The position numbers and the translations under genes are program-made. From Litorivivens lipolytica (lineage in GTDB: Bacteria > Pseudomonadota > Gammaproteobacteria > Pseudomonadales > Spongiibacteraceae), in contig NZ_JACHWY010000001.1 in the NCBI RefSeq assembly GCF_014191715.1, positions 1,302,001-1,366,000 of the forward strand: a stretch of 64,000 nucleotides of DNA. Reading direction: 5' to 3'. The first letter of the stretch is position 1. Each line of letters starts with the position of its first letter. Below the pieces are notes generated by a model. It searched no databases, was not told where the DNA came from, and saw only the letters and a program-made list of their open reading frames with translations. Positions 1 to 8,919 of this stretch are shown one piece after another.

Positions 1-226
1 CAAGCCGGGTGATGAAATCCGCGCGTTCAATGCGGCGACGACCGGTTCGCATCAGCGCCTTGTGCCCCTGCTCACGAATACGGGCGATACCGCCGAAACG
101 TTCGCCAACGGCGAGTCCAACCTCGTAGAATGCCAGTGCGAGAAAAAACAGCAGAGCCCAGATTACAGGCTCCAATAGCACACTGGTAATCTGATGAAGC
201 AGGCTCAGTGAATAACCAGCAAACAT
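1..226 (-). CDS. Probable MotA/TolQ/ExbB-type membrane protein (partial, N-terminus only)
   Basis: Only the first 75 or so residues are present; the gene runs off the left edge. The start is the ATG at 224-226, preceded by an AGGAGAA ribosome site 5 to 6 bases upstream. The protein opens with a short amphipathic stretch, one clear membrane segment (about residues 14-36, rich in Leu, Phe and Ala), then a basic, Arg-rich cytoplasmic part. It begins 12 bases after the stop of the CobN-like gene, so the two are surely co-transcribed. In known CobN/HmuS loci the next gene is usually a MotA/TolQ/ExbB proton-channel protein followed by a DUF2149 protein; the assignment here rests on that context plus the membrane topology and is an inference. 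Confidence 0.55.
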   Translation of the reverse strand, partial: MFAGYSLSLLHQITSVLLEPVIWALLFFLALAFYEVGLAVGERFGGIARIREQGHKALMRTGRRRIERADFITRL

Positions 227-238
227 TGAATTCTCCTC

Positions 239-3200
239 TTAATGTGCCCGGCGACCACGCCAGAATCCGACGATCACTAACCCAGCCGTAATTAGCGTAA
301 GCAGCCACAACAAGGTTTGTGTCGCCGCCTCGCCCTTTTCGTTAGCGGCTGCCGTAACGTCCCGCAGTTCAGCCACCCGCACCATCTCACTACCACCTTC
401 CTGCGACTCGGGAATTCGAGCCCGCGCCAGCACCTGCTCCAAAGCCTCGGCCTGATCAGATTCGAGCAAAGTCTTGATGCGTTCGAAGACCGGATGGTTG
501 GGGTGGGTATGACCACTGCCGGGCAGGCCATCGACTAAGACGTTGTCGGCAAACTGACGGGCCAGCTGCTGCTGTGTCGCTTCGCCAGCTTCCCAGAAAC
601 CTTTGTCGATGGCGACCAGCATGATGGCCAGCATATTGGTCTGAACGTGGCGACGGTGGCCCTCACCCAGAAACTCGTCCAGCCCCAGTTCATGACTGTC
701 ATCGACGTAAACGGCTTTCACAGACTCCCAGGCTTCATCACGAATAATGTCGGGGCTGGTCACCTGCCAGCCCCAGAGGTACTCCACAAACTCGCTACCC
801 ATCGTGCGGGCACCGGCATAACCCTCTTCCATCAGAGGCTTGATCCATTGCGGGTTCAGAAAACGCCCGCGCAGCTCACTGAGTAGTGCGGTTTCCAGTG
901 CTTCTATGCGGGCCCGATCCGCGTTGGCGTGGTTGATCACAGCACTGTCCGGCTGACTGCCGCTAATTTTTTCGACGGCCATATTCAAGCCACCGAGATA
1001 ATCAAAAGCGTCGTTGTTGTCGATCAAACCATAGAGGTTGCTGGCACGACCCAGGTAGGTATTGGAAATCCCCTCTAGCTGCTTCTCAAACAGGGGCTGC
1101 ACCGCTTCACCGGACAAACCTCCGCCATAGGCATGCCCCATCCGTTTGATAAAGACCTCTGCCAGTTGCTCGCGATCATTCCAGGCACCAGAGCGCTCTG
1201 CCAAACGATTGATACCGGCACCGTAGGCGCCGGGAGCAATACCGAAGACTCGCAAACTGGCCTGACGACCGGCTTCAGTGGCGGCACCCGGCGAGGCACT
1301 CAACAACTCCCGCGCCTCATCGACCCAGTTAGCCGCAACCAGATTGCGTTCGAAGGGCTCACGCCCGCCTTCACGAGATTCGCCGAGCGACGCAAGTGCC
1401 GCGTCCAGCGCGGGAATTAGTAGCGGATAGTTTTCGCGAATAAGATCTGCACTGGCGTCCAATGCCAGCAGACTAGCACGATCAAGCAACACCAGATGTT
1501 CACCATAGAGATCACGGAACAGGCCCGAGGTGGTAAACACCACGTCCAAGCGGCGGGATTGCTCTGCCCCAAGCGGCAGCCTCTCCAAGCCTTTGATAAT
1601 CCCACGACTGTTCCAGACTGGGCGCACGCCGAGCAGCTTCATACCAAAGGCAATCATTGCGCCTTCATCACGTACCGCATCGGATGCCCACAAAATCACA
1701 CCCTGTTTATTGCGCTGACCCGGCACTAACCCGTCAATGTCCAAGGTCTCCCCTTTCAACACCGCGCCGGCCAGCTCACTGCCCTGTTCAAAGCCCACAC
1801 GGGTCGGCAGGAGGCTCCCATCCAAAGCATAGAAGTTACGCCCGGTGGGCAAGGCCTCTGGGGTACGGATCGGATCATTGCCCTTACCCGGTTTCACGAA
1901 GCGGCCATTCAAACCCGCCAGCAGGGCCTGCATTTCAGCTGCGGGGGAGCGGATCAGATTTTCCTTCCAACGCGCCCGGGAATTGCTGTCGGTAGTCCCC
2001 TGTACCATGGACTCCAGCAGGGTTTCGACGCCTTCGTCTGACCAGTCTCGGCCAAACACGTGAAGCCCCAGCGGCATAAAGGCTTCCTGCAAGTTGGTGA
2101 GATAATGCCCGACTTCGTGTAAGAGGAACTCTTCATCGACGTCGTCAAAACCGACGCCGCGTACTGCAAGCTCCTCATCCATGCTCGCGACCAATTCCTC
2201 GCGCAAGTTCATTTCATCGATGCGCTGGCGCATGGTTGAGACGGCCCGTGAGCGAGTGCTCGCATCTCCAGCCGCCTCGGCGCTTTCGATCAATTGCCGC
2301 AATTCCAGAAGATCGTCGTAGAGTTCAGTCGCCGCCAAAGGCGGCGTCAAATGATCGACCATCACCGCCTGCCCGCGACGCTTGGCCTGAATACCCTCAC
2401 CCACCCCGTCAACGATGTAGGGGTAGATGCCCGGAACTTCACCCGCAACCAGCGCCGGATAATCATCTTCGTCCAGACCGACACTGCGGCGCGGCATGAA
2501 CTCATAGGTTGAGTGTCGACCCACATGAACCATGGCATCCGCCCGAAAAACATCACGTAGATAATGATAAAAGGCGAGATACTGGTGCGGTGGCGGGAAA
2601 GACAGATTGGCATGCAGCAGCTCCTCGTGTATCTCCCAACCTCGAGGTGGCTGCGGGCCGATAAAGACCTTGCCGAACTGGAGCCCGGGGATCAGCAATT
2701 GATTCTGCCAGACCATGACTTTACCCGGTGCCTGTCCCCAACCGCGCAAGCCTTCGATATTTAAATTGATCAGTGCCCGTAGCGGGGTTTCTGCTTTCTG
2801 CCACGGGAGGGAAATCGCTTGCCCCCGCGCGGCATCATTCAATAGATCTTCATAGGCGTTTTCGAGCTGATCGAGCAAGGCCAGTGCCCGCGTCCTACCA
2901 GGGTGCCGCAAGCCATCGAGGGCATGGTGAACATCGGTGACAACGTTATGTAAGACATCCTTTAACAGGGCCAACCTGCGCTGTCGTTCTGAGAGAGAAT
3001 CAAGCTGCAGCGCCTCTACCGCACCCTCGCGCAGGCGCACTGCAAGTTGCGCCAGTGGACCATCGGTCATCTCCGCCTGAACACTGGCGGGCAGTGTCTT
3101 GAACCACTCGGAATACGTCTCGGCACTCAGCGTAACCGCGCGCTTGCTCATCGCAGCCAGCGCCTCGCGATCGTTGGGCAAATTGACACCTTGTTCCTGC

Positions 3201-4585
3201 AAGCTATCCAGCAGAACCTCGGCATCTTTAGGCAGTGGGCCGGTGTCGTAGCCAGCTGCTTTCAAAGCACGCAGTATTTCCAACAGGCTTTCCGGCACAT
3301 TGAGGTTATCAGCACCAATATTGTGACGACCGGGCGGATGATTGTAGTAGACAATGGCAATACGCTTATCGGCATTGGCTTTGCCTTGCAATCGCAGCCA
3401 GCTTTCGGCGCGGCGGGCGTGTGCCTCAACAGCCCCACCGAGCGGTTTAGTTTGGCTGATACGCGCACCGGTGCGTTCATCTTCCTCCGTCTGGCTTGCC
3501 AGTGCCAGAATCGCTGGCTGGCTTACACCCTGCAGTTCCGGCATGGCCACGCGATAGTGAACGGAATCTCTCGGCACACCTTGATTGGACAGCGCATAAT
3601 CCGCCGCACTCAGGTCCGTCAGCCGCAGGCCTTTCATCACCGGCAGATTAATCTCTGCAAGGAGATAATCCACCTCAGCGCGACCATCACCTCCCCCGAT
3701 AACAAAATCCTGAAGACTGACAATTACCTGACCAGCGTGCGTCTTGGTGGAATTGATCAAGGCCACCGCCTCGACGCTCGGTTGCCCCCAACCTGCCAGT
3801 AGAGAGACACACTGGGCATTGAGCGCAGCGCAGTAGCGACGATGGAGCGCCCACTCGCCGGACAGATCTGCGCTGTCATGATCCAGTAACCAGATCAGCG
3901 GGCGCTTGCGGTCTAGTTTGCTGGCAAGCTTGTCTGGCGCAAGCCAAAGCACACTGTCCGCGTCGTGCAGAGCAACACGGAGCGGTGCAATCACTTCCAG
4001 CAAGGGCATCTGCTGACCGCGTGAGCGGATAAATTCAAACATCGACGCCGCGTTGGTTACCGAGCGGTTCACCCAGTAGGCCCTAACCTGCAGCCAATCA
4101 CGGAAACCCGGGAAATCACGCTGTTTCTGCGCAAGCGTCTGTGTATTCAGTACCGCTTCGCGGTCACCCACAACCGCTTCCGGCAGGCCATTTCTGAAGA
4201 TCTGACCCTGGCGGTCCTGCTGTAACAGAAACAGACGACGGTCGCTGTGAATCACAAAGCGCTGCTGGTTTTTGGGATAAGACAGCGCCAGCAAGCGATC
4301 CACGACATCGCCAAATACCGCAACCAACAACAGACTGTCGTGTTCAACAAGCAACGACTGAAGTTCTGAATCCAACAGCATCTCAAGCTGCTCGAGTGTT
4401 CGCACCGAAATACGCTGACCGGGGTCTCTATCGAGAATTTGATGCGCACCAGCTACCAGCGTAGGTGCCGAGCGCTCGGAGACTAGAGCCAGAACCGACG
4501 ATTGAGCAGATACGGCCCATCCGGATTGCAATGTCAGCAGACACGCAGCCAGCAGGAGGGTTATCCACTTACTTAAGTCATTCAT
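239..4585 (-). CDS. Secreted, membrane-anchored CobN-family protein (HmuS-like chelatase/dechelatase)
   Basis: A protein of 1448 residues in the CobN/magnesium-chelatase large-subunit family. Visible family signatures include PPGRHNIGADNLNVPESL in the N-terminal half, the HVGRHSTYEFMPRR block where cobaltochelatase has HxGTHG, and HEVGHYLTNLQEAF. I chose the ATG at 4583-4585 because it begins a good signal peptide (MNDLSKW, then a Leu/Ala-rich core ending near AVSAQSS); the longer upstream frame lies in the riboswitch leader. A single C-terminal membrane helix (last ~27 residues, followed by GRRAH) would anchor a periplasmic body. Cytoplasmic CobN works with CobS/CobT on aerobic B12 synthesis; a secreted, anchored form cannot. 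It resembles the HmuS group, reported to remove metal from haem in Bacteroides. Control by a cobalamin riboswitch suggests a corrinoid or cobalt substrate here instead. The family is sure; the substrate is not. Confidence 0.85.
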   Translation of the reverse strand: MNDLSKWITLLLAACLLTLQSGWAVSAQSSVLALVSERSAPTLVAGAHQILDRDPGQRISVRTLEQLEMLLDSELQSLLVEHDSLLLVAVFGDVVDRLLALSYPKNQQRFVIHSDRRLFLLQQDRQGQIFRNGLPEAVVGDREAVLNTQTLAQKQRDFPGFRDWLQVRAYWVNRSVTNAASMFEFIRSRGQQMPLLEVIAPLRVALHDADSVLWLAPDKLASKLDRKRPLIWLLDHDSADLSGEWALHRRYCAALNAQCVSLLAGWGQPSVEAVALINSTKTHAGQVIVSLQDFVIGGGDGRAEVDYLLAEINLPVMKGLRLTDLSAADYALSNQGVPRDSVHYRVAMPELQGVSQPAILALASQTEEDERTGARISQTKPLGGAVEAHARRAESWLRLQGKANADKRIAIVYYNHPPGRHNIGADNLNVPESLLEILRALKAAGYDTGPLPKDAEVLLDSLQEQGVNLPNDREALAAMSKRAVTLSAETYSEWFKTLPASVQAEMTDGPLAQLAVRLREGAVEALQLDSLSERQRRLALLKDVLHNVVTDVHHALDGLRHPGRTRALALLDQLENAYEDLLNDAARGQAISLPWQKAETPLRALINLNIEGLRGWGQAPGKVMVWQNQLLIPGLQFGKVFIGPQPPRGWEIHEELLHANLSFPPPHQYLAFYHYLRDVFRADAMVHVGRHSTYEFMPRRSVGLDEDDYPALVAGEVPGIYPYIVDGVGEGIQAKRRGQAVMVDHLTPPLAATELYDDLLELRQLIESAEAAGDASTRSRAVSTMRQRIDEMNLREELVASMDEELAVRGVGFDDVDEEFLLHEVGHYLTNLQEAFMPLGLHVFGRDWSDEGVETLLESMVQGTTDSNSRARWKENLIRSPAAEMQALLAGLNGRFVKPGKGNDPIRTPEALPTGRNFYALDGSLLPTRVGFEQGSELAGAVLKGETLDIDGLVPGQRNKQGVILWASDAVRDEGAMIAFGMKLLGVRPVWNSRGIIKGLERLPLGAEQSRRLDVVFTTSGLFRDLYGEHLVLLDRASLLALDASADLIRENYPLLIPALDAALASLGESREGGREPFERNLVAANWVDEARELLSASPGAATEAGRQASLRVFGIAPGAYGAGINRLAERSGAWNDREQLAEVFIKRMGHAYGGGLSGEAVQPLFEKQLEGISNTYLGRASNLYGLIDNNDAFDYLGGLNMAVEKISGSQPDSAVINHANADRARIEALETALLSELRGRFLNPQWIKPLMEEGYAGARTMGSEFVEYLWGWQVTSPDIIRDEAWESVKAVYVDDSHELGLDEFLGEGHRRHVQTNMLAIMLVAIDKGFWEAGEATQQQLARQFADNVLVDGLPGSGHTHPNHPVFERIKTLLESDQAEALEQVLARARIPESQEGGSEMVRVAELRDVTAAANEKGEAATQTLLWLLTLITAGLVIVGFWRGRRAH

Positions 4586-4729
4586 CCAGAAGCCTCGATT
4601 GCGGTGCACCTTTGCGGCGAAAACCGGTGAATTCAGAATGACAGCAGCGGATATGAGGAGTGGGTGGGCCGGGCGATCGTGGTCCGGCAATCCATCCGAA
4701 CCCGGCGCCCCGCCACTGTTCGCATTTCT

Positions 4730-4960
4730 GTTCCGGGCCGGTCTCCGGGCTGGCAGACGCGATCTCACGCCGCATTCAACCTTCCCATACCCATTGGATA
4801 CAGTGGCTGCAAATACCGTGGAGGCATATGCGCTGAATGCGTTTCTGCTTACCGTTGCGGGGGCAGCACAGGCTTTGCTTTGCGTAGCGATACATGACGC
4901 AGCGCGCACCTGTTTCCCGATTATCCCTTACCGCCGATAGCAGCTCGGGCACCTGAAACG
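4730..4960 (-). ncRNA. Cobalamin (AdoCbl) riboswitch
   Basis: Read on the minus strand, the leader has the hallmarks of a cobalamin riboswitch in order: a GGTGCCCGAGC 5' arm (near 4953-4943), the conserved core GCTGCCCCCGCAACGGTAA (about 4868-4850), the ACTGTATCCAATGGGTATGGGAAGG type junction (about 4803-4778, described by position), and a B12 box GCCAGCCCGGAGACCGGCC (about 4754-4736). About 150 bases separate the B12 box from the start codon of the CobN-like gene; that stretch contains GC-rich hairpin-forming sequence (about 4681-4712) that could be the expression platform. High cobalamin is expected to turn the downstream genes off. Confidence 0.93.
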
Positions 4961-4967
4961 AGGGGCA

Positions 4968-4995
4968 ATAATAAGGAGCTGAGGGGGACAGTCAA
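4968..4995 (-). promoter_or_regulatory. Sigma70-type promoter of the riboswitch operon
   Basis: On the minus strand a TTGACT -35 box (4995-4990) is followed after 16 bases by TATTAT (4973-4968), placing the start site right at the 5' end of the riboswitch aptamer. The -35 box abuts the T-run of the bcsC terminator, so the two units are packed back to back. Confidence 0.65.
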
Positions 4996-5020
4996 GAAAA
5001 AAGCGCCCCGTGGGGCGCTT
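4995..5020 (-). terminator. Rho-independent terminator after bcsC
   Basis: On the minus strand AAGCGCCCC and GGGCGCTT form a strong stem with an ACG loop (5020-5001), followed at once by a run of six T. It lies 4 bases after the bcsC stop and separates the cellulose operon from the riboswitch operon. Confidence 0.92.
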
Positions 5021-5023
5021 ATC

Positions 5024-8000
5024 TCAGTCGAAATCGCTGTAGGGAATGGGAGGTTCCGGCGGCGTGGGTACCGGACTCCAGCGATCCTTGAAGGTGTAGC
5101 GGGCGTAGATAACAAAATGGTTCGGCTCGTAGAAATCCGCGCGCTGTATGTCAGCCGCAGCACCCAGATACCAATGGTCGCTGATGCGTTTTTCTACCGC
5201 GGCTTCTACGGTAAAGCCAAAATCCTTACTGGATGAAGAGCCTTCACCATAGCCAAAGGGCTCGTCTTCTCTAGACCAGGAATGGCTGACGGATGCTCCG
5301 ACCATATACGAAAAGTCGTGGCCGCTGCGACCGAAATAACGCACCGGCAATGACACCGACACATAGTTCTGCGGACTGAAGTAGCCTGCGTTATCCAAGC
5401 CACGGTTGATCAGATTTTTATCGTACTGCAGGTGCATCAGGTTAACGCCGACCTGAATATTGTGCGGAACCGATTCTTTGGCACGCCAGTACACACCGCC
5501 CAGTACGCCGAAGCGGTCATTGTCTTCCACGCGCCCCTGCCCCGTCAGCTGGTGAGCCTGCAGACTGCCCCAGTAGCCAACCTTGCCACCGAGATCATAA
5601 CTCAGGCCGAGTTTACCGCCGGTGCGCACTACGCCACCCCATTCGGTGCCCTGGAATCCGCTGGCATCGGAGGGAACTTCCATCCCGCCGTAGGACAGGA
5701 GTGTGCCGACTTCGGGTCGACGCGACAGATCAAGGGTCCAGCCCACATCGCCAACATCACCCGACAGGCCAACACCGCCAACCCAGGTGCGCTCGCGAAA
5801 GCCGAGGGGTGTGGTACCGACATCTACCGACCAATCTTCTGCCCGCCAGCCAATGCCCAGCGCGATGCCGGTGTCTTTTTCCTGAAACTCGACACGCTGT
5901 GTTGTCAGCGGATTCAACGAAGGTCGATCAATATAATCGACATCGCCCGTATCGATACTGACATAGTCAATACGACCCAACAGGTGTCCGTCCCATTTTG
6001 AAATGGGATAAAGAATTTCTACCGGCACAAGAAAAGTCTCTTCCGTACCGTCGCGCTCGCTGATATCCAGACCAAACCAGATATGCCCGTCTTCGCGGGC
6101 ACGAATTCGATCGAAGGTGCTTCGGGCACTGCGGGTCAACCAATTCTTTTCTGCAGCAGCCCACAAGGCCTTGGGATCATCTTCGGCGCGAAGTCCGGTT
6201 TCCTTCTCCATCGCTTTGATGGCAAGGGCTTCGGATGCTTTCCAGGCTTCAATCTCTTCCGCCAGCACCATGGCGTTGCGGAGGTCGAGCGCACTGGCGT
6301 CTCCGCGACTTTCCACATCGCTGAGCAGCACTTCGGCCAATGCGTGATCATCCATCTGATGCAAGGTATCCGCAATCAGAATCACTTCAGCCGGGGTACG
6401 GCGATCAGGATCGACCAGCAAACGCTCACGATATTTTTCATACACGTCTTCATGCCCCAACTGGCGAGCCGTACGCAACACACCCAGCTCGGCCGCCAAC
6501 TGATGATCGCCTACCACGCCTGCCGCCCGCAGGTAGAACGCGTAAGCCACCTCGTACTCGCCACGCCCCTCAGACTCACGGGCGCGCAGCACAAGAAACT
6601 GCGCGTGCAGGCGACCGAGATTGCCTTTCTGTTCGGCAGACATTTTGCGAGGATACATTTCCGCGTACCAGTCACCGAATTCCTCTTGCTTATCTAGCGC
6701 AAGCAACAGTTCACCATAGGCGAACTGCCGGTCAATCGGCCAGGCATCGGTGGGCGTCAATCCGTTAACGATCTCCTCGGCGCGATTACGGCGTTGGATG
6801 GCCAGCCATTGGTTAGCCACTCGCATCAGGTTATCAGGATCGAAGCGATAGTCTTCCTCCATCTGGCCCAGCGTTTCGATCAGACCATCTTCGCTGCTTG
6901 CAACCGCCGCGGCGAGCTGCTGATCGAACTTTAGCCGGCGCAGGTTAGACTTCATCGCATCGCTGCGCTGACTTTCAGGAATAGATTCCAGTACCGCCAC
7001 TGCTTCGTCAGCACGGTCACGGCCGGATAGATAAAGGGCATAGGCAAACTGCATTTCAGCGGACTTGTCCGCGCGCGCCCAGCTGCGCATCAGGTTGTCA
7101 GCGCGCTGCGTATCACCGAGTTTAACCAGCGCGTCCGCAATATCGGAACGCTGCCATGGCGAAGTCGGGTTAAGTGAAATTGCTCGTAGAATATCTGCCA
7201 GAGCCGCTTCACGATCACCCCGAGCCACCGCGTAATCCATGCTGACCAGTGTCTTTTCCAGACGCCAGTCTTTGAGCCGATCAGCGATCTGTCCCTGTTG
7301 CGCTTTGGAGTAGCTAAGCGCCAGTTCCAGTGCCGCAACGCGATTACCCTGTTCGGAGCGCATTTCGACGCGGCCCCACAGCGAAGGTTCGTGCAGGGCA
7401 TCGACACTCAGCGCTTGAACATAGCGACGGTCAGCATCCGCATAGTTCCCGCGTGCGCGCTCGATACTCGCCAGACGCTGGTATGCCTCTGGTGCACCGG
7501 GGTTAATTTTGATGTTTTTGATCAGTAACTGTTCGGCATCGTCGTACTGACGGGCGGCAATCATCGCGTCCGCGCGATCCAGATTGGCCCAATACAAGGA
7601 AGTGTTGTACAACGCATCCCACTTCGAGGTGAGATCTGGATTAAGATTGTTGTTCTGGGCACGTTTAAAGTAAGTCAGCGCCTTGGCCTGACGACCTTCG
7701 CGCAAATACACCATCCCCAGGCCGCCAAGCACTTCTTCGTCATTGGGGAAGTCTTTCAGAGCTTCCAACAGCTTCCATTTAGCACGCTGGGTTTGATTGC
7801 GATTAAGCAGCGCCAAGCCTTCCTTCTTTGCACGGTAGCGGGGGTTTTTCAGTCTTTCCTGCTCGGCCTTGAGTGCCAGTCGCGCATTTTTGTAGCGCTC
7901 CTGAATATCGATATCATCCGGGTAGCGATTCGCCAGTTCTTCGAATTCAGCGACAACGTCAGTACTGATCGGACGGCTATTCAATTCGCGAATCCAGCTA

Positions 8001-8761
8001 TCGGCCGCGCGACGGCCTATACCGTAACCGTAGGCCAAGCGCTTATAGGTATTTAACGCCCACTCATTGCCGGGGTTGTTCCGCATGAGGTGCTCGGCCA
8101 GCGCCAGTTCGATGGCCGGAAAATCCGGGTATTGAGCATCGAGGTTCTTAAGCGACTGATAGGTATCCAGCCAACGCCCTTCAATCGCGGCCTGCGTATT
8201 GAGGTACTCGAGCTCCAATGTCAGCGTCGGCCGTCCCTCAGGAAACAGTGAGTCATAGACTTCCAGAGCCTTGCCATAACGGCCCGCAGTCGCCAGCAGA
8301 CGCGCCTGTTGCAATTCATGCTTACGTGTGGTTTCCGAATCGATAAAGTGCGACAGCAAACGCGCACCGGTTGAATTGGGATAAGTGCTGGAATAGTTTT
8401 CGAGAATTTCGCGGGCGCGCTGATCATTGCCGGCATAAACCGCCTGATAAGCCTCGAAGAAAAACACGCGCTGGTGACCCGGTGCAATGGCCTTAAGCTT
8501 GTTTAAGGCCTCGCTGAGAAGATCAGGGCGGTTCATTACCTCGGCAAGGTGCAACCTGCGCACCAGTTCGCGCATATCCTTTTCGTCGGGGGCAGCCAAG
8601 GCAGGGCCAGCAGGCTCTTCCGAAGGCTCTATATCCACTTTGGTCTCACGCTCAGGGCCTGTATCTTCAGGCGCCCAGTAGCGCTGGTATACCCACCAGA
8701 CAATTGCGCCCAGCACCAGCAGTGGCAAGGCCTGAATCACTGTACGACCGGTTATGCGCAC
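5024..8761 (-). CDS. bcsC: Cellulose synthase operon protein BcsC (TPR scaffold and outer-membrane pore)
   Basis: About 1245 residues, the usual size of BcsC. A short N-terminal membrane/signal segment (TVIQALPLLVLGAIVWWVYQ) leads to a long array of tetratricopeptide repeats through most of the protein, and the last ~330 residues are an outer-membrane beta-barrel ending in the terminal aromatic pattern FKDRW...PPEPPIPYSDFD. BcsC guides the glucan from the inner-membrane synthase through the periplasm and across the outer membrane; the TPR region can also bind the modified polymer. Two starts are possible: ATG at 8773-8771 or GTG at 8761-8759. I prefer GTG because GGGAGG sits just before it. 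A 170-base gap with a hairpin separates it from bcsB. Confidence 0.93.
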   Translation of the reverse strand: MRITGRTVIQALPLLVLGAIVWWVYQRYWAPEDTGPERETKVDIEPSEEPAGPALAAPDEKDMRELVRRLHLAEVMNRPDLLSEALNKLKAIAPGHQRVFFFEAYQAVYAGNDQRAREILENYSSTYPNSTGARLLSHFIDSETTRKHELQQARLLATAGRYGKALEVYDSLFPEGRPTLTLELEYLNTQAAIEGRWLDTYQSLKNLDAQYPDFPAIELALAEHLMRNNPGNEWALNTYKRLAYGYGIGRRAADSWIRELNSRPISTDVVAEFEELANRYPDDIDIQERYKNARLALKAEQERLKNPRYRAKKEGLALLNRNQTQRAKWKLLEALKDFPNDEEVLGGLGMVYLREGRQAKALTYFKRAQNNNLNPDLTSKWDALYNTSLYWANLDRADAMIAARQYDDAEQLLIKNIKINPGAPEAYQRLASIERARGNYADADRRYVQALSVDALHEPSLWGRVEMRSEQGNRVAALELALSYSKAQQGQIADRLKDWRLEKTLVSMDYAVARGDREAALADILRAISLNPTSPWQRSDIADALVKLGDTQRADNLMRSWARADKSAEMQFAYALYLSGRDRADEAVAVLESIPESQRSDAMKSNLRRLKFDQQLAAAVASSEDGLIETLGQMEEDYRFDPDNLMRVANQWLAIQRRNRAEEIVNGLTPTDAWPIDRQFAYGELLLALDKQEEFGDWYAEMYPRKMSAEQKGNLGRLHAQFLVLRARESEGRGEYEVAYAFYLRAAGVVGDHQLAAELGVLRTARQLGHEDVYEKYRERLLVDPDRRTPAEVILIADTLHQMDDHALAEVLLSDVESRGDASALDLRNAMVLAEEIEAWKASEALAIKAMEKETGLRAEDDPKALWAAAEKNWLTRSARSTFDRIRAREDGHIWFGLDISERDGTEETFLVPVEILYPISKWDGHLLGRIDYVSIDTGDVDYIDRPSLNPLTTQRVEFQEKDTGIALGIGWRAEDWSVDVGTTPLGFRERTWVGGVGLSGDVGDVGWTLDLSRRPEVGTLLSYGGMEVPSDASGFQGTEWGGVVRTGGKLGLSYDLGGKVGYWGSLQAHQLTGQGRVEDNDRFGVLGGVYWRAKESVPHNIQVGVNLMHLQYDKNLINRGLDNAGYFSPQNYVSVSLPVRYFGRSGHDFSYMVGASVSHSWSREDEPFGYGEGSSSSKDFGFTVEAAVEKRISDHWYLGAAADIQRADFYEPNHFVIYARYTFKDRWSPVPTPPEPPIPYSDFD

Positions 8762-8919
8762 ATTTCCTCCCATACTTGTCGGCGCGCGTCAGCCTCTAGG
8801 CTACGCAATATCGCGTCGACAACGTCGAATACACTCTTCCCCACACTAGATCTCAGCCCAAAAGCTGAACGCCGAGGTGACCGAGCCCGGCCACAGTCAG
8901 CGCTCAAATAGACTGAGAA

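Follow-up and report, generated by a model that had tools for sequence, protein, structure and literature searches.

What does a CobN-family protein do when it is predicted to lie in the periplasm, under the control of a cobalamin riboswitch, in a bacterium that most likely does not make the corrin ring? The question is raised by one end of a 64 kb stretch of the 3.49 Mb genome of Litorivivens lipolytica (the window, G000:C1:1302001-1366000), where a gene of this family is directly followed by an ExbB/TolQ-like gene, starting at window position 226, and then by a DUF2149 gene. A preliminary description made from the sequence had noted the riboswitch, a promoter, a terminator and a secreted CobN-like protein with a probable ExbB-type partner, and had thought of a corrinoid dechelatase, a remodelling enzyme or an energy-coupled uptake system. 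We tentatively favor a periplasmic corrinoid metal chelatase that loads or exchanges cobalt for salvage, with the ExbB-DUF2149 pair acting as a proton motor that replaces the ATP-driven CobST. The corrinoid link of the operon is well supported; we infer a corrin as the substrate, loading or exchange of the metal as the reaction, and the CobN-like protein as the target of the motor.

The CobN-like protein and its family

The PF02514 match and the whole-body fold matches place the protein in the class-I chelatase superfamily of CobN, ChlH and HmuS. The predicted signal peptide and the C-terminal membrane helix set it apart from the cytoplasmic CobN of CobNST, and both features, as claimed in the preliminary description, were found in the sequence. 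The same pattern was seen in most of the 84 family members, since a hydrophobic N-terminal stretch was present in 83/84, a C-terminal stretch above a mean hydropathy of 1.6 in 72/84, and a net positive charge after this stretch in all 84. These topology calls rest on the sequence and a simple hydropathy script rather than on a dedicated signal-peptide predictor, and an extracytoplasmic location of the predicted protein is well supported.

Next, the residues of the active site were compared. The superfamily catalytic residues are kept in the 84 members, with His691 standing for HmuS His538 and Glu730 for HmuS Glu577 (84/84 each), and the catalytic core is, as read from the alignment, intact. 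Beside the catalytic His, Arg690 and Ser692 are found in 84/84 members of the clade and in neither HmuS, CobN nor ChlH, Ser692 taking the place of a superfamily Gly. At the metal site, Asp1192 is as in CobN (84/84), whereas HmuS and ChlH carry a His; the HmuS-type ligand His1209 and the motif LSLDHxxEFMGG are thus absent, with Asp within DNNDAFDYLGG instead. The protein also contains an HExGH motif, neither His of which is present in HmuS, three CobN, ChlH or 11 rows of more distant CobN-family proteins (type 2), and this motif may be an extra, clade-specific metal site. Further residues confined to the clade in the compared rows were His416, His658 and His1359 (the last in 83/84). A Cys252/Cys259 pair occurs in 83/84 members; it aligns with Cys in the CobN-clade locus L095 and is not clearly specific. 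The Met-rich insertion of HmuS domain IV is absent as well: the window protein has at most 6 Met per 120 residues and 3 per 22 residues, against 21 Met in about 120 residues of Bacteroides thetaiotaomicron HmuS (PMC12583661; papers are cited here from partial text). The tree separated a clade of 83 rows from the type-2 proteins, HmuS and CobN/ChlH with a support of 100, although this tree was built by a quick method, has long branches and does not fix the position of HmuS. The NCBIfam equivalog cut-offs for CobN were missed by the protein, at 515 versus 822 bits for TIGR02257, 632 versus 1619 for NF004645, and 613 versus 1248 for NF004644.

The body was then modelled (residues 262-1398, from a 42-sequence alignment), giving a mean predicted local distance difference test score of 80 and a predicted template modelling score of 0.82. 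The model matched the CobN fragment 9fpc with a Z-score of 45.3 (root-mean-square deviation 2.1 Å, 381 residues), CobN 7c6o with 45.0 over 788 residues, ChlH with 42.3, and HmuS with 34.8-35.3 over 857-859 residues. Judged by structural Z-score, the modelled body resembles CobN more than HmuS.

Table 1. Features of the locus. Positions are those of the window unless a genome coordinate is given.
Feature	Position	Strand	Evidence
DUF2149 gene, beyond the window	longest open reading frame G000:C1:1301479-1301823	-	PF09919, E 1.5e-9; start uncertain, frames overlap
ExbB/TolQ-like gene, 150 amino acids	5' part 1..226; whole G000:C1:1301774-1302226	-	PF01618, E 5.5e-9, 36.3 bits vs cut-off 22.9
CobN-family protein, 1,448 amino acids, predicted periplasmic	239..4585	-	ATG start; PF02514, E 1.7e-244
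C-terminal membrane helix, residues 1424-1441	263..316	-	sequence; followed by WRGRRAH, a cytoplasmic tail by the positive-inside rule
DNNDAFDYLGG, residues 1189-1199	989..1021	-	Asp1192 at the place of HmuS metal ligand His1209; Asp 84/84
HEVGH (HExGH), residues 823-827	2105..2119	-	His823, Glu824, Gly826 and His827 each 84/84
HVGRHSTYEF, residues 687-696	2498..2527	-	His691 is the counterpart of HmuS catalytic His538; both His 84/84
Signal peptide (approximate), residues ~1-27	4505..4585	-	sequence; N-terminal hydrophobic stretch in 83/84 members
Leader, aptamer to start codon	4586..4718	-	minimum-energy fold with the ATG inside a long hairpin
Cobalamin riboswitch aptamer RF00174	4719..4971	-	86.2 bits vs gathering score 31.5, E 7e-20, full model 1-189
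Sigma-70-like promoter TTGACT-16-TATTAT	4968..4995	-	10/12 matches; 1 found vs 0.3 expected in shuffles
Intrinsic terminator	5001..5020	-	1 found vs 0.4 expected in shuffles

Cobalamin control and the corrinoid setting

A covariance-model scan confirmed the cobalamin riboswitch over its full length, and this was the sole Rfam match at the gathering score in the window. The host genome contains three RF00174 riboswitches: that of the CobN-like operon, a second ahead of cobB/cbiA, cbiB and cobD, and a third ahead of btuB, cobO, btuF, btuC, btuD, bluB and cobQ; near this last group lie cobU and cobT. These names are best NCBIfam matches (btuC, btuD and cobT by reading), and btuB, btuF, cbiB and cobD score below the curated cut-offs. 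The genome has a single PF02514 protein (three pieces of the same open reading frame), one DUF2149, three ordinary ExbD and CobS, and gave no CbiC match. Because late-pathway genes are present without a CbiC match, salvage of corrinoids rather than synthesis of the ring is most likely in the host. The earlier remark that cob genes are not visible may hold for the window, but not for the genome, which carries this late salvage pathway. Around the operon, no btuB, haem-uptake or cob gene was seen among the listed open reading frames of the 13 kb to its left (seven scanned with Pfam) and 9 kb of the window; the haem or iron neighbor that would have spoken for haem was thus looked for and not seen there. 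Extension to the left, as the preliminary description had suggested, did yield ExbB and DUF2149 genes, and no btuB in the 13 kb. The host btuB is found on a different contig with a riboswitch of its own, not beside the cobN-exbB-DUF2149 trio.

Relatives were taken as the best 80 of 170 confirmed loci, mainly from Gammaproteobacteria with some from Betaproteobacteria, Nitrospirota and Nitrospinota; the loci span at most about 24 kb, some are incomplete and one (L080) is partial. The trio was found in 80/80, with the partners directly downstream of cobN (76 by a strict rule, plus L057, L064, L083 and L084, where the ExbB frame opens earlier). For 49 of the 80 loci, a search with stricter filters was available, and its matches were placed by contig coordinates: RF00174 lies upstream on the coding strand in 44/49 genomes, among the matches listed and with cmscan. 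Of these, 32 are directly upstream, 11 further up the same strand (among the matches listed) and L036 was found by cmscan; in the 11 cases, no open reading frame above 150 amino acids lies on the opposite strand between riboswitch and operon. The conserved core motif was present in 41/43 placed matches versus 157/980 random intervals, and the two matches without it (L038, L060) sit just before a BtuB-like gene. Outside the 49, five loci were scanned with Rfam: a same-strand upstream riboswitch was found in L035, L065 and L091, and none in L045, whose contig begins inside a receptor gene, or in L089. A home-made riboswitch pattern recovered 10/18 Rfam matches and was dropped for the Rfam models.

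In the 80 loci we counted a BtuB-like receptor in 40, cobO in 20, btuD in 17, cobD in 16, btuF, bluB and cbiB in 13 each, cbiA in 12, cobU and cobT in 11 each, btuC in 10, and cobQ in 7. Names are the best match to the proteins of the host genome, BtuB-like denotes any match to a broad TonB-receptor profile, and what is labelled btuC, btuD or btuF may belong to another ABC system. Salvage islands were read as follows (RS, riboswitch): RS-btuB-cbiA-bluB-cobN-exbB-DUF2149-cobO-cbiB-cobD-btuF-cobQ in L042, RS-RS-btuB-cobN-exbB-DUF2149-cobO-cbiA-bluB-btuF-cbiB-cobD-cobQ-cobU-cobT in L075, and RS-btuB-cbiA-cobN-exbB-DUF2149-cobO in L108. With BtuB-like receptors, cbiA, cobO, cobQ and btuFCD-like genes adjoining many of the relatives, the preference for corrinoids over haem expressed in the preliminary description was supported.

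To these loci we added a sample of 299 Pseudomonadota genomes, the host included. DUF2149 was present in 13/299, and in 13/13 a CobN-family gene stood beside exbB and DUF2149; four belong to the clade of the window protein (the host, L106, L107 and L108) and the nine more distant ones are type 2. CbiC was not found in 13/13 of these genomes, against 173/286 negative and 113/286 positive among those without DUF2149 (Fisher p 0.002), and it was not found in 45/50 operon genomes, the host among the 45. CbiA amidates cobyrinic or hydrogenobyrinic acid, and it was present in 31/45 CbiC-less operon genomes, versus 31/173 CbiC-less genomes without DUF2149 and 20/71 when these were also required to be CobS-positive; the baseline in the Gammaproteobacteria part was 9/30. 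For CbiA, matches with an E-value of 1e-20 or lower were accepted even when they missed the family cut-off, with a partial CbiA at a contig end (G044) counted as present, and all these associations ignore kinship and use genome lists compiled by hand.

The motor, the proposed mechanism and its rivals

The preliminary description had suspected an ExbB-type partner, and the next gene indeed encodes a PF01618 protein of 150 amino acids. An ExbB (as HmuU) and a DUF2149 (as HmuV) thus adjoin the CobN-like gene, the neighbors typical of HmuS. In the ExbB-like family, the Thr of GLMGT is found in 83/83 and the second Thr of AFDTT in 81/83, and the DUF2149 proteins have an Asp in the membrane helix in 83/83; conserved Thr and Asp of this sort are expected of a proton channel pair. 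Control searches found both DUF2149 and PF02514 in the archaeon Methanosarcina acetivorans (adjacency lay outside this comparison), an organism with no outer membrane to energize. Since the pair is constantly found with CobN-family genes, with or without a receptor gene in the stretch covered, and DUF2149 occurs in M. acetivorans, we infer that the motor serves the chelatase. In print, HmuU/HmuV have been assigned to TonB and the receptor (PMC10100974), while PMC13227078 left their role open.

The proposed mechanism would run as follows. Under cobalamin shortage, the riboswitch would permit expression of the operon, and the CobN-like protein would be exported and anchored through its C-terminal helix on the periplasmic side of the inner membrane, where it would bind corrinoids delivered by BtuB. 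Its class-I chelatase core would insert cobalt into metal-free corrins or put cobalt in the place of a wrong metal (Cu, Zn, Ni); the product would then be imported by BtuFCD and finished by CbiA, CobO, CobQ, CbiB, CobU, CobT and CobS. The periplasm has no ATP, and the ExbB-like and DUF2149 proteins would form the proton-driven motor that powers the chelatase. Cytoplasmic CobN requires CobS/CobT and ATP (PMC7689651). As to the metals, insertion of Cu(II) into the metal-free B12 ligand is about 200 times faster than that of Co(II), Zn(II) is faster too, and Cu is lost on reduction (PMC12174906). The wider idea, that a stator-type proton motor in place of an AAA+ ATPase drives periplasmic cobalt loading or exchange with the help of the HExGH site, and that HmuS-HmuU-HmuV is the haem version of the same class, we hold to be possible but doubtful.

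Several observations weigh against the chelatase reading. In the structural comparison that the preliminary description had called for, the Z-scores and the Asp metal site follow CobN, but the Foldseek E-value ranks HmuS first and VIA-align aligned HmuS over more residues than CobN; ChlH also stands above HmuS, and therefore Z does not single out corrin. The metal-site Asp is present in 8/11 type-2 rows too. No upstream riboswitch was found by Rfam scan in L041, L043, L069 and L078, and L053 has a divergent one only, which weakens universal B12 control; the relatives are not mutually independent, and the completeness of the 49 genomes is not stated. CbiC is present in 5/50 operon genomes, CbiA was not found in 14/45 of the CbiC-less ones, and among CobS-positive genomes of the 299-genome sample the CbiA difference (7/11 versus 20/71) reached p 0.03 only. 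The DUF2149 profile, compared with very few ExbD sequences, gave no significant full-length match, the membrane motif alone aligning (E 0.014, probability 3%), and a BtuB-like receptor gene in half of the loci (40/80) leaves room for a receptor link of the motor. Metal-free corrins do occur in nature but are scarce (PMC11816046), and the case is built from sequence, comparison and models.

The same operon, island and riboswitch data would also suit a corrinoid hand-off machine, a membrane-anchored receptor opened and closed by the proton motor that passes corrinoids from BtuB or a carrier to BtuF without metal chemistry. The frequency of BtuB-like receptor genes and the BtuFCD-like genes of the host agree with it, and a cobalamin riboswitch is typical of uptake genes. 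However, a chelatase His-Glu pair invariant in 84/84 goes beyond the needs of a binding protein, BtuF would be expected to do the transfer already, and the clade adds an invariant HExGH, and we regard the hand-off as unlikely. That the trio stands in for BtuFCD was rejected for the host genome, which has BtuFCD-like genes. It is less probable still that the protein is a de-chelatase stripping the central metal from corrinoids, to gain cobalt for other uses or to detoxify wrong metals. The PepSY_TM family is thought to include reductases, and same-strand genes of this family near the trio or receptor in L035, L040, L059, L072 and L087 would fit a reductive step. HmuS, a haem de-chelatase, shares the membrane-anchored layout (PMC12583661) and has ExbB and DUF2149 as neighbors too (PMC10434189), but corrin holds cobalt very tightly (PMC12174906), and the HmuS ligand His1209 is Asp here. 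Cobalt removal during B12 starvation would be physiologically senseless, since stripping would waste the nutrient in cells apparently without ring synthesis. The preliminary description was supported for the extracytoplasmic CobN-like protein, its ExbB/DUF2149 partners, the B12 control and the corrinoid link; among its options, dechelation of cobalt is the less likely one, in view of the B12 control in apparent ring non-makers and of a metal site that follows CobN.

Improbable to much the same degree is a reading in which ExbB-DUF2149 serves TonB and BtuB as their own ExbBD pair, in the way suggested for HmuU/HmuV with HmuR, and the CobN-like protein is an independent enzyme of the operon. This is the published view for the hmu operon (PMC10100974) and for the Geobacter lovleyi cobN-exbB-exbD-tonB cluster (PMC3403914), and BtuB-like receptor genes do lie near many trios. 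Against it, the CobN-family gene adjoins the pair in 13/13 sampled genomes and 80/80 relatives, receptor nearby or not, the host lacks a receptor gene next to the trio and has its three ordinary ExbD, and DUF2149 occurs in M. acetivorans. Finally, a haem de-chelatase acquiring iron and only incidentally regulated by B12 would explain the HmuS-like homology and layout; it appears very improbable given the riboswitch upstream in 44/49 (among the matches listed and with cmscan), the corrinoid-gene neighbors with no haem gene seen beside the locus, the separate clade and the missing Met-rich insertion.

Compared with known systems, the chelatase proposed here is close in outline to HmuS-HmuU/HmuV of the Bacteroidota hmu operon, also an exported, anchored CobN-family protein beside an ExbB-type protein and DUF2149, with His538 and Glu577 kept. 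HmuS, however, acts on haem, is iron-responsive and has the Met-rich insertion and His1209, whereas the trio has a B12 riboswitch, the Asp, HExGH and corrinoid neighbors. Some hmu-like operons with a CobN-like protein distinct from the cobalt chelatase of B12 synthesis are preceded by a cobalamin riboswitch and were noted as likely cobalamin-linked (PMC10100974); such operons have been proposed for metalloporphyrin salvage, and BtuS1/2 of Bacteroides fragilis act on haem iron, unlike the present clade with its ties to corrinoid salvage genes and missing ring synthesis. CobN of CobNST (7c6o, 9uk9, 9fpc) shares the body fold, the Asp site and the catalytic His and Glu, but it is cytoplasmic, is driven by ATP through CobS/CobT and serves de novo synthesis; no ExbB or DUF2149 was found in 19.9 kb around L095, the one CobN-clade gene examined. 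The pSZ77 cluster of G. lovleyi (PMC3403914) likewise has a CobN-like gene beside ExbB/ExbD-type and B12 genes, without CobS/CobT there; unlike the trio it was reported as outer-membrane transport, with tonB and two receptors, and was compared by description only. The motor pair resembles ExbB-ExbD and TolQ-TolR in the ExbB family match and in the single membrane helix with Asp of DUF2149, which differs from ExbD in the lack of significant full-length similarity and in having a CobN-family gene next to it in every genome examined.

The kind of system is thus known in outline; what is new is the clade with its motifs and the proposed mechanism. A third CobN type was named by Rodionov in 2003, as cited in PMC6460266, cobN annotations in genomes without ring genes may be other chelatases (PMC8123684), and most of the superfamily was left unassigned (PMC12583661). 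No published proposal of a proton-driven chelatase, or of a link of the clade to missing ring synthesis, was found in a search that most subscription papers lay outside. The proposal gives a concrete, testable role to a clade that family models call cobaltochelatase subunit CobN, even though ring synthesis is not seen in most of its genomes, and cobN-based predictions of B12 synthesis would be corrected. If the motor reading is true, metal chelation would have a new source of power, and the constant company of HmuU and HmuV with HmuS would be explained; whether metal-free or wrong-metal corrins in the environment are salvaged by bacteria also becomes a testable question.

Other features of the locus and of its relatives

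The promoter claimed in the preliminary description was found again, as a sigma-70-like site leading into the riboswitch. The terminator is present as well; it most likely belongs to the upstream gene and not to the operon, because it sits just past the stop of that gene at 5024. This gene (5024-8773, minus strand) encodes a BcsC-like protein with tetratricopeptide repeats that scored 555 bits, below the BcsC equivalog cut-off of 858. The predicted leader fold would suggest translational control, but its energy is no better than that of shuffles (z -1.1, 26/200 shuffles as good). A longer GTG start at 4909 for the CobN-like open reading frame was rejected, as it would read through the riboswitch.

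Among the relatives, the Nitrospirota salvage islands L035 and L038 carry multiple cobalamin riboswitches within 24 kb, with five RF00174 matches in L035 and three placed ones in L038. Clustering of neighbors gave PepSY_TM membrane proteins in 6 loci, with L020 on the other strand; those near the trio or an adjacent receptor gene on the same strand are L059 8290-9855, L072 8313-9827, L035 17468-18910, L087 17860-19371 and L040 8323-9407, identified by Pfam in four of the five and by sequence similarity only in L040. Two of these genes sit between the riboswitch and the cobN-like gene, and they possibly provide a reduction step. The largest cluster of unknown neighbors was an other-strand protein in 8 loci. 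Downstream of the trio, L072 (16012-19040) and L074 (15983-18882) have two-gene units whose second protein is MotB/OmpA-like by eye.

In the type-2 units (L098, L102, L104, L109-L114), exbB and DUF2149 adjoin a CobN-family gene, frequently accompanied by a BtuB-like receptor gene, and the order is exbB-DUF2149-cobN in L109-L113. Because L104 and L114 have an HmuS-like Asp-His site, their substrate may be haem. In Zoogloea (L077 and L079), a second cobN-exbB-DUF2149 unit, which the tree places in type 2, lies in the first 3.2 kb of the locus, about 6.5 kb from the first unit.

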